Assembly: GCF_018069865.1 (NCBI RefSeq)
Contig: NZ_JAGQDG010000001.1
Location: 806,001 to 870,000, forward strand
Length of the DNA stretch: 64,000 nt
Reading direction: 5' to 3'
Source of the DNA: Ideonella paludis
GTDB lineage: Bacteria; Pseudomonadota; Gammaproteobacteria; Burkholderiales; Burkholderiaceae_C
Positions 19,174-21,382 of the stretch are shown piece by piece. The notes beneath the pieces are model-generated. The model searched no databases and was not told the origin of the DNA. It worked only from the letters and a program-made list of their open reading frames with translations. A program made the translations under genes and the position numbers. Every line of letters begins with the position of its first letter. Position 1 is the stretch's first letter.

Positions 19174-19189
19174 CTGTCAAGGTTGACAG
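19174..19189. promoter_or_regulatory. Palindromic operator-like site upstream of the repeat peptide gene
   Basis: CTGTCAA at 19174-19180 and TTGACAG at 19183-19189 form a perfect 7-bp inverted repeat with a 2-bp centre, of a size suited to a dimeric regulator. It also contains TTGACA (19183-19188), a consensus -35 hexamer, although no good -10 element lies 17 bp further on. It stands 72 bp before the start of the peptide gene. Confidence 0.45.
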
Positions 19190-19261
19190 TGCCGCCGTGC
19201 GCGCCCCCTTGCTGCAATGCAGGGGTGCGCGATGTTGCGCACGTTTGAACTGGGAGATTGA

Positions 19262-19432
19262 ATGACAACAGCGAACCCATGCGCACCGCGCGAATTGAGC
19301 CTCAGCGAGCTGAGCCATGTGGCGGGCGGCGCCGCCGAATCCCTGGAGGGTTTTGTCCTGTCCGAAGGCTTTGTGCTGTCTGAGTCGGTGACCCCCGTCG
19401 TCGGCACCGAAGGCTTCGTTCTGTCGGAGTAA
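19262..19432 (+). CDS. Double-glycine-leader peptide with EGFVLSE repeats (putative RiPP or bacteriocin-type precursor)
   Basis: A 56-residue ORF, MTTANPCAPR then ELSLSELSHVAGG (residues 11-23), which matches the double-glycine leader pattern LSxxELxxVxGG cut by C39-peptidase ABC exporters. After the GG at 22-23 comes a 33-residue, glutamate-rich core with no lysine, arginine or cysteine. It contains the heptapeptide EGFVLSE three times (29-35, 35-41 and 50-56, the first two sharing a glutamate), with an SVTPVVGT linker before the last copy. A GGGAG ribosome-binding site lies six bases before the ATG. It sits between proC and a lipoprotein gene with its own upstream palindrome. No maturase, immunity or C39 transporter gene is in the window, so it is an orphan. 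It may instead be a self-standing exported peptide. Confidence 0.7.
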   Translation: MTTANPCAPRELSLSELSHVAGGAAESLEGFVLSEGFVLSESVTPVVGTEGFVLSE

Positions 19433-19457
19433 GGCGCCCCTTAGGCGCGACTGCGCC

Positions 19458-19481
19458 CTGGCCCACTGCACGGTGGGCCAG
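19458..19481. terminator. Hairpin after the repeat peptide gene
   Basis: CTGGCCCAC at 19458-19466 and GTGGGCCAG at 19473-19481 form a perfect 9-bp stem with a 6-nt loop, 25 bp after the stop of the peptide gene. The T-run is poor, so it may be a weak terminator, an RNA-stabilising stem or an attenuation element before the lipoprotein gene. Confidence 0.5.
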
Positions 19482-19642
19482 TTGCCCCTGCTGGGCCGCT
19501 CACAGCCGCTCTCCTTTCCACTGTTTTGAGGAAGACGTTGCCGCGACGGGTTTCTAAAGTTCTGACGACAAACAACGTTCAATAAGCCGCTGAGTTGGGC
19601 GCAAGCAGCCGAACTCGGCAGGTGTCGTCGGAGAACCCACGC

Positions 19643-21382
19643 ATGCGCTCAAGCCCCATTTCTCTCCTCTTTGCCCGAGATCTGGGCCGCCATGCCAGGC
19701 GTCCCGTCGGTCAGCGCTTGGCGGTCATCGCCCTTGCCGCAGCCCTGGCCGCTTGCGGTGGCGGTGGCGGAGGCTCGGACCCCGCCTCTGGTGGTGGCAC
19801 AGGCGGCGGCACAGGCGGGGGAACGGGCGGCGGGACGGGCGGGGGCACCGGTGGCGGTGGCACCTTGGTGCTGCCCACCGTGGCCATCAGCACCCTCAGC
19901 TCCAACACCCTGACGCAGCCCGGTACCGTGCTGGCCGGCAGCCGCACCGATGACCTGACGCCCCTGATCTCCGGCAGCTTGAGTGCGGCCTTGGCAGAGG
20001 GCCAAAAGCTCAAGGTCTATGACGGCGACACGGCCCTCTCCACCAGCCCCACCGTGCAGGGCCAGACCTGGACCCTGACGCCCAGCCTTGATCTGGCAGA
20101 GGGCGTCCACCGCTTCAGCGCCGAAGTTGTCGGGGCCGATGGCAAAGCCGGCACGCGGAGTGCTGTTTATGAGGTGACGGTGGCGGTGGCCCGTTGGCAA
20201 AGCATCAGCCCTGCGCAAGGCCTGCGCGCCACACCGCTGGCCCTGCGGCTGAGCGGCAGCGCATGGCCCGCCCAAGGCTGGAGCGTGGAGCCGCTGGACG
20301 ATGCCCGCGCCACCTGCGCCGCGCCCACCGGTGTGAGTGACACCGGCCTGGATGTCAGCTGCACCTTCTTCCAACTGGGTGAGCGCAAAGTGGCGCTCAA
20401 GCTCAACGGCCAGACCGTGGCACAACCCAGCGTGACGGTGAACAGCAATGTCAGCGCTGTGAGCTGGTCCTCGCCCAGCAGCGGAGGCTTTGGCACGGGC
20501 ACGGTGCTGCTCGGTGAGCAGGTGCAGTTCAAGCTCAGCGGCACCCAACTGCTGGCCGACACCGATTGGCTGCTGAGTGTGGACGGCTGCAGCAGCGCGC
20601 CCACGGAGGTGGGCACAGGCAGCGCCACCGAGCGCGTCTTTGCCTGCACGCTCAGCGCCAGTGCAGGCGCGGGCCAAAAGGCGGGCACGCTGCGCTTTGG
20701 CGGGGCCAGTGGCCCGGTCTTGGCAGCGTGGCAATTGCCGGTGGCTGTGCCCCCGGTGGTGGCCCCAGCGCCCAAGTTGCCGCACAGCGGTGTGACGGCC
20801 AGTCAGTGCTACACCAGCGGCGGTGGCACCGTCTTGTCAGCCTGCAGCAGTGCCAGTGCTGTGGCCCTGAATGGCCAGCAGGACGGCCATCGCACCAGCG
20901 TCAACGCCATGAGCTTCAGCCGCGTCGGCAGCTACACCTTGGAAGAGTGCGTCAAGGACGATGTGACCGGCCTGGTGTGGGAGGGCAAGGCCACCAGCGG
21001 CTTGCGTGCCGGCAGCACCTTGGTCAACCACATTGGCTTTGACCGACCCGACCTGGGCGTGGTCTCGACCAGCTACTACGTGGCGGCCGCCAACACCCAG
21101 CGCCTGTGCGGTTATGCAGACTGGCGGCTGCCCACATTGCATGAGCTGCAGTCCATTGCCGACTACAGCAAGGCCTCGCCCGGCCCGGTGCTGGCCTCTG
21201 CGTGGCTGGTGAACACCAATACCAGCAGCGGCGTCTACTGGTCGGCCACTCCGGAGGCCGGCAGCACCACGGGCCAATGGGTGCTGGACTTCCGCGATGG
21301 ATTGGGCTTCACCACCCCACGCCAAAACGCCAACGGAGACGGCTATCTGCTGCCCGTGCGACTGGTGCGCGGCGCACCGTGA
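19643..21382 (+). CDS. Lipoprotein with glycine-rich linker and C-terminal DUF1566 domain
   Basis: A 579-residue exported protein. The signal ends in a lipobox (LAAALAACGGG), followed by an imperfect GGGTGGGT linker of about 30 residues. The middle has Ig-like beta regions with a paired-cysteine pattern. The C-terminal 150 residues form a DUF1566 (Lcl C-terminal) module: LEECVKDDVTGLVWEGKA, CGYADWRLPTLHELQSIADY, YWSATPEAGS and DGYLLPVRLVR. This module has a C-type-lectin/FGE-like fold and occurs in surface proteins. The start at 19643 follows a GGAG site and gives a proper signal peptide. It is paired with another DUF1566 gene 20 bp downstream. Confidence 0.8.
   Translation: MRSSPISLLFARDLGRHARRPVGQRLAVIALAAALAACGGGGGGSDPASGGGTGGGTGGGTGGGTGGGTGGGGTLVLPTVAISTLSSNTLTQPGTVLAGSRTDDLTPLISGSLSAALAEGQKLKVYDGDTALSTSPTVQGQTWTLTPSLDLAEGVHRFSAEVVGADGKAGTRSAVYEVTVAVARWQSISPAQGLRATPLALRLSGSAWPAQGWSVEPLDDARATCAAPTGVSDTGLDVSCTFFQLGERKVALKLNGQTVAQPSVTVNSNVSAVSWSSPSSGGFGTGTVLLGEQVQFKLSGTQLLADTDWLLSVDGCSSAPTEVGTGSATERVFACTLSASAGAGQKAGTLRFGGASGPVLAAWQLPVAVPPVVAPAPKLPHSGVTASQCYTSGGGTVLSACSSASAVALNGQQDGHRTSVNAMSFSRVGSYTLEECVKDDVTGLVWEGKATSGLRAGSTLVNHIGFDRPDLGVVSTSYYVAAANTQRLCGYADWRLPTLHELQSIADYSKASPGPVLASAWLVNTNTSSGVYWSATPEAGSTTGQWVLDFRDGLGFTTPRQNANGDGYLLPVRLVRGAP
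19796..19862 (+). repeat. Glycine-rich GGNGGC simple repeat
   Basis: Imperfect 12-bp units encode the GGGT-type linker of the lipoprotein, just after its lipobox. Such a tract can vary in length between strains. Confidence 0.6.

Follow-up and report, generated by a model that had tools for sequence, protein, structure and literature searches.

A double-glycine-leader peptide gene of Ideonella paludis shares its promoter design with a remote operon for a LuxR-type regulator and a C39-peptidase exporter

The 64,000-nucleotide stretch of Ideonella paludis DNA analysed here (the window; contig NZ_JAGQDG010000001.1, positions 806,001 to 870,000) contains a small gene for a peptide in which a double-glycine (GG) leader precedes a core with three copies of the hexad GFVLSE. 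This gene has a distinctive promoter in common with an operon of the same genome that encodes a LuxR-type regulator, a second GG-leader peptide, an HlyD protein, and a C39-peptidase ATP-binding cassette (ABC) exporter, so that the term orphan, applied to the peptide in an earlier sequence-only reading, no longer suits it. The evidence is strong that the gene is coding and that the promoter is shared. We conclude that the window gene is probably a satellite of this LuxR-solo and C39-exporter system, because the exact promoter palindrome occurs just twice in the genome, each time ahead of a GG-peptide gene; because the window site stands out when scored with a matrix built from foreign promoters; because the genome holds one C39 match and one match to the LuxR-type family PF03472, with the domains confirmed; because the peptide has an ortholog and its frame is under selection; because a GG-leader or Gly-Ala (GA)-leader open reading frame (ORF) follows the LuxR gene in nearly all of the best loci of relatives; and because luxI has no match in most genomes that carry the regulator.

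The two occurrences of CTGTCAN4TGACAG in the 4.8-Mb genome precede the operon peptide gene and the window peptide gene, respectively, and a reversed-pattern control gave none. The promoter design common to both genes is this box, a spacer of 20 nt, and YGNTNNAAT; the box of the operons in relatives usually reads CTGTMAGANNTGACAG, again followed after 20 nt by YGNTNNAAT, and the offset of the -10-like element from the box start is 36 there as in the window. To score complete promoters, we used a 45-nt matrix of 28 foreign operon promoters (L052 plus 27 of L085-L113, a series of 29 foreign loci from which L087 and L089 drop out because they fail the pattern), a set that excludes the window genome (G000) and the genome of a relative with an ortholog (G159) and that was collected with a pattern already including the box and the -10. 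The peptide promoter is the best site in the window at 27.2 bits, the next one scoring 0.14 bits and the maximum over 20 shuffled windows being 8.0 bits; it is weaker than all of the training sites (39.8-60.5 bits). The own operon scores 29.4 bits, the G159 operon 46.6 bits, and the promoter of the G159 satellite gene 29.9 bits. With a predicted transcription start ≈7 nt after the -10-like element, the box centre would fall near -43, and class II activation by LuxR proteins uses a box centred at about -43. The upstream palindrome of the sequence-only reading is present but resolves into two elements, the box and a separate hairpin. The hairpin block is identical in G159, and the leaders of many operons have a stem at a comparable position, although its P value falls below 0.05 in only 7 of 32. 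The stem of the window gene has a P of 0.28, and none of 100 shuffles reaches its folding energy.

The C39 peptidase domain (PF03412) has a single match in the genome (C11:740270, E 1.2e-35), ≈85 kb from the peptide gene on the same contig and outside the window, in keeping with the earlier statement that the window holds no transporter. The exporter to which it belongs and the adjoining HlyD protein are now the candidates for the machinery in trans that had been proposed. The LuxR-type regulator of the operon is the sole PF03472 match in the genome, and no luxI-type synthase of N-acyl homoserine lactones (AHLs; PF00765) was matched in it at E<=0.001. Table 1 gives the positions of the operon genes along with those of the window features.

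Table 1. Features of the window peptide gene (window positions) and genes of the remote operon (positions within locus L002)
Feature	Location	Strand	Remarks
LuxR-type box, 16-bp palindrome CTGTCAAGGTTGACAG	19174..19189	.	exact CTGTCAN4TGACAG; matrix top site
Extended -10-like element TGCTGCAAT	19210..19218	+	20 nt after box
Hairpin GTGCGC...GCGCAC	19225..19242	+	just after -10-like element, near predicted transcript start
Ribosome-binding site GGGAG	19252..19256	+	sequence reading
Peptide gene	19262..19432	+	ATG start; 56 aa; MTTANPCAPRELSLSELSHVAGG / AAESLEGFVLSEGFVLSESVTPVVGTEGFVLSE; double-glycine leader
Predicted leader	residues 1-23		
Predicted core	residues 24-56		three GFVLSE hexads
Two adjacent hairpins 3' of stop	19444..19481	+	predicted fold; possible terminator, without T run
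LuxR-type regulator	L002 5845-6591		Autoind_bind and GerE above cut-off
Second GG-leader peptide	L002 6692-6898		leader ending LQCVAGG, then LAASAGESTELPYRGWSSGGNDSLPYRGW; duplicated LPYRGW core
HlyD	L002 6923-8203		
C39-ABC exporter	L002 8091-10376		C39, ABC_membrane, and ABC_tran above cut-off

The peptide itself has the marks of a real gene, as had been claimed from its ribosome-binding site, upstream palindrome, and downstream hairpin. Its leader, LSLSELSHVAGG, fits LSxxELxxVxGG directly before the core, with the boundary at Gly23, and the 33-residue core is acidic and, as described earlier, free of Cys, Lys, and Arg, whereas the leader holds Cys7 and Arg10. All three of the reported EGFVLSE copies stand (residues 29-35, 35-41, and 50-56); copies 1 and 2, however, have Glu35 in common, and the repeat unit is therefore the hexad GFVLSE. 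Among the 504 window ORFs of 30-120 aa, the strict GG-leader motif, which was picked for this comparison after the peptide had been seen, occurs in this gene only, and a 6-mer present at least three times occurs in this gene and in one proline-rich antisense ORF; neither feature was found among 53,859 ORFs of the same size range in 60 Markov-shuffled windows. Searches of the peptide against Pfam (E<=0.01) and NCBIfam (E<=1) gave no match, and at these thresholds no curated precursor family of the known classes of ribosomally synthesized and post-translationally modified peptides was matched either. Downstream of the stop codon, where one hairpin had been noted, two are predicted, and the same two-hairpin layout is predicted 3' of the G159 ortholog.

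That ortholog is the only one in the 15 other genomes of a genus sample of 16 that includes G000; it retains the frame, the leader, the linker, and three diverged repeats, with 64% identity over residues 1-56. In the annotated frame, the synonymous divergence (dS) is ≈0.97 and the nonsynonymous divergence (dN) ≈0.25, a dN/dS of ≈0.25, whereas dN exceeds dS in four of the other five frames, and the values of 0.84 and 0.28 in the remaining, antisense frame are expected from codon positions. The three DNA repeats of the window gene differ at five third-codon positions through at least seven changes, every one synonymous (a simple model of random change gives P 1.3e-4). These comparisons indicate that the peptide frame is under purifying selection, and the refuting outcome named in the sequence-only reading, a lack of such an ORF in close relatives or of selection on its frame, did not occur. 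We give practically no credence to the idea of a chance ORF without a product: its presence in just 2 of 16 genus genomes would suit that idea, but we reject it on the selection on the frame and the synonymous-only repeat differences, and the conserved promoter and the shuffled ORFs argue against it too. The gene lies after proC in both G000 and G159, with another ORF between in G159. A scan of the stretch after proC in the 16 genus genomes found the satellite peptide in the own genome only, having missed the G159 peptide, known from the ortholog search, since the match to proC in that genome covered no more than its initial part; regex matches in L187, L189, L190, and L198 are by eye not GG peptides.

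Beyond the genus, the pairing of regulator and peptide recurs. Matches to the LuxR protein at E<=1e-12, which include more distant LuxR proteins, were found in 132 of 399 family genomes and 56 of 141 genera; a single match (32%) was found on plasmids. When the 30 best LuxR loci were read by eye, a GG- or GA-leader ORF stood just downstream in 29, the exception being L089, and HlyD-like ORFs came next in many (uncounted). The cores of 27 of these 29 peptides contain PxxxW (e.g., APKSTW, SPVKGW, and LPYRGW), L094 and L099 being those without it, and nine have the motif twice (L084, L091, L100, L102, L103, L104, L106, L111, and L113). A C39 domain beside the LuxR gene, examined in the genus only, is present in G000, G152, G153, and G076 and absent from G159. 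The relaxed box CTGTMAN4TGACAG occurs in 73 of 80 LuxR-bearing genomes, with 12 matches to the reversed control over all 80, and luxI (PF00765) has no match in 70 of the 80, the own genome included, and a match in the other 10. Clusters of LuxR genes were also seen, with up to five copies in ≈4 kb in G096 (G096:C20:409536-413773) and close copies at G066:C143, G225:C1, G355:C1, and G210:C1.

The closest solved relatives of the LuxR protein by sequence are LasR and QscR (an entry named quorum-sensing control repressor). We aligned 26 LuxR members, of 32 tried, over the AHL pocket, transferring the numbering through the LasR alignment and taking W57, Y61, D70, P71, W85, and G113 to be the pocket residues. 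D70, P71, W85, and G113 are invariant in all 26; at the W57 position, 21 members have Tyr or Phe and 3 have Trp, and at the Y61 position, 3 have Tyr. In the own LuxR, W57 is retained and Y61 is not. Judged from the alignment, these receptor residues would fit, without proving, a ligand that is not a classical AHL. One such ligand could be peptidic: an exported PxxxW peptide, or perhaps the window core, would re-enter the cell and bind LuxR in a positive loop. The adjacency of LuxR and peptide genes, the lack of a luxI match in most LuxR-bearing genomes, the scarcity of Trp and Tyr at the W57 and Y61 positions, and the short cores with a recurrent and often duplicated motif all speak for such peptide quorum sensing, as does the response of the LuxR homolog PipR to the tripeptide Ser-His-Ser, described at a relatively high concentration in PMC4981722. 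We nevertheless consider it rather unlikely, given that the four other pocket positions are invariant, that the own LuxR has W57, that the window core lacks PxxxW, and that, according to passages of PMC10134790, the better-supported PipR ligand is an ethanolamine derivative.

The mechanism that we propose for the satellite gene has the LuxR protein, perhaps with a non-AHL ligand, binding the box centred ≈43 nt before the transcription start; it would then activate the two peptide genes in the manner of class II LuxR promoters. Cleavage after Gly23 would be the work of the C39 domain, and the ABC and HlyD pair, together with an outer-membrane partner, would export the acidic core, which outside the cell would serve as a co-regulated secreted effector. 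Since the operon already encodes a recurrent PxxxW peptide suited to a pheromone role, we lean, tentatively, toward the secreted core being an antagonist or a peptide that self-assembles, and away from its being the pheromone. A rival explanation, possible rather than probable, is signal-triggered antagonism, in which foreign AHLs or a compound from a host would be sensed by the LuxR solo, which would in turn induce bacteriocin-like GG peptides, the window peptide included. A GG leader with a C39 exporter is the layout of class II microcins, the regulator is a LuxR solo with D70, P71, W85, and G113 kept, and the hexads of the G159 ortholog have all changed in parallel (GIVLAE, VFVIAE, and VFVLAE). 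However, inspection by eye of the window ORFs near the peptide, where no systematic search was made, showed no immunity-like gene; an acidic core without Lys or Arg is unusual for pore-forming peptides; and the Pfam and NCBIfam searches gave nothing. The widest proposal, that LuxR proteins without luxI sense C39-exported PxxxW GG peptides throughout the family and that here the regulator also drives the remote peptide with three GFVLSE hexads, seems doubtful to us as a whole.

Several findings weigh against the satellite relationship. The window core has no motif in common with the operon cores, and the -10-like element of the own operon starts with CG instead of TG, as it does in L102. The exporter ORF of G159 (L114 6128-8977, 949 aa) joins HlyD and ABC in one frame without C39, which may be either a real loss or an assembly error. 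The satellite peptide is confined to G000 and G159 within the genus, and a 150-genome family sample yielded no further ortholog. Moreover, of 40 CTGTMAN4TGACAG sites away from the main LuxR operons in other genomes, taken among the matches listed, six gave regex matches but, by eye, none had a convincing GG peptide. With the 45-nt matrix, 38 of the 40 score below 15 bits, and no GG peptide follows either of the two above that value (L151, 21.9 bits; L171, 16.7 bits). Two of the 40 (L169 and L181) adjoin LuxR paralogs. The genus sample contains 15 box sites in 8 of its 16 genomes; a GG peptide follows five of them (two in G000, two in G159, and one in G152), and at the loci of the other 10, the full promoter scores below 0. 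A third GG-leader peptide of the own genome, which would have been a further member of the regulon, is ruled out as such by a best promoter score of -0.2 bits.

A further explanation, concerning the hexads, was suggested by the family sample, in which 42 of the 150 genomes had some match at E<=1 and the best non-ortholog match (E 1.7e-4) was the C-terminal tail of a subtilase with GFLLSE/GFILSE arrays. The core might be functionally tied to such arrays, for example through a common assembly or binding motif, or descend from such a tail. The rows below the ortholog in the genus search (E 0.015-0.06) are likewise subtilase repeats, both loci from a contig scan are such tails with the same period of six, and genus genomes G150, G151, and G161 carry arrays. 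Yet neither G000 nor G159 gave an array at E<=5, the hexads of G159 resemble the tails less, no context link was seen, and low-complexity matches can arise by chance; we therefore regard this link as quite improbable. PF00082 was confirmed for one array-bearing subtilase (L046), and long hexad arrays of this kind end subtilases of relatives at L004, L025, L026, L027, L041, and L042.

GG-leader peptides and their C39-peptidase ABC transporters are familiar from class II microcins and from streptococcal GG pheromones and bacteriocins. The window peptide resembles these in its leader, in the presence of C39-ABC and HlyD proteins in the genome, and in being a small unannotated gene, but differs in its distance from the exporter, its LuxR-type promoter, and its repeat core. 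Among NCBIfam models, the ABC protein scores highest with that of an NHLP-type bacteriocin exporter (TIGR03796, 508 bits), although the score is under the cut-off of 853 bits and no NHLP precursor family was matched. As in AHL-based LuxI/LuxR quorum sensing, the regulator has autoinducer-binding and GerE domains; unlike in those systems, the six pocket residues are not all conserved and the genome has no luxI match. To our knowledge, ligands and linked outputs have been established for few LuxR solos. A LuxR solo that is recurrently linked to a GG peptide, with an exporter alongside in the loci checked and a further peptide whose promoter has the same design, is a directly testable candidate for Gram-negative peptide signalling or for peptide warfare set off by a signal, and from sequence alone the 45-nt promoter signature distinguishes operons and satellites from box sites that lack the rest of the promoter.

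Taken singly, both C39-exported GG peptides and LuxR solos are known. The operon regulator shares its domain composition and the missing luxI match with the LuxR solos treated in passages of PMC4338825 and PMC10134790 but is linked to a GG peptide and the exporter for it, a setting that those passages do not show. Its family likewise recalls the plant-responsive LuxR solos PipR and OryR, as portrayed in passages of PMC4981722 and PMC10134790, in the changes at W57 and Y61, the linked target gene with an upstream inverted repeat, and a possible non-AHL ligand, whereas here the W57 position is mostly Tyr or Phe, the stretches read contain no proline iminopeptidase neighbour, and the output is an exported peptide. 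No LuxR-GG peptide-C39 operon is described in the open-licence literature searched, including passages of PMC5872303, PMC4338825, PMC10134790, and PMC4981722, and one may be in print elsewhere.

Some further loci were noted in passing. The third GG-leader peptide, which lies outside the window (G000:C17:569345-569470; L023 minus strand 1471-1710), has two WExFPFV units, MNTPTMTQPQELDLSQLQQVAGGVQSVEAQPQWEVFPFVSVPPSLEWESFPFV, and is convergent with a TPR protein. At L171 (G098:C22:553500-555200), the ORF that follows the box with the 16.7-bit promoter score looks, on inspection by eye, like a C39-like domain such as type I exporters carry. Exact CTGTCAN4TGACAG palindromes also lie upstream of a secreted-protein-like ORF with a MNKFALRAVAAAALALSLG-type start in four genus genomes, at L054, L060, L061, and L062 (G154, G153, G157, and G158), without the promoter layout of the LuxR operons. 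In the window, the next ORF downstream of the peptide gene (19595-21382, + strand) has a lipoprotein-like start and a Gly/Thr-rich repeat linker, and the antisense reading of 19711-20013 within it gives a proline repeat.
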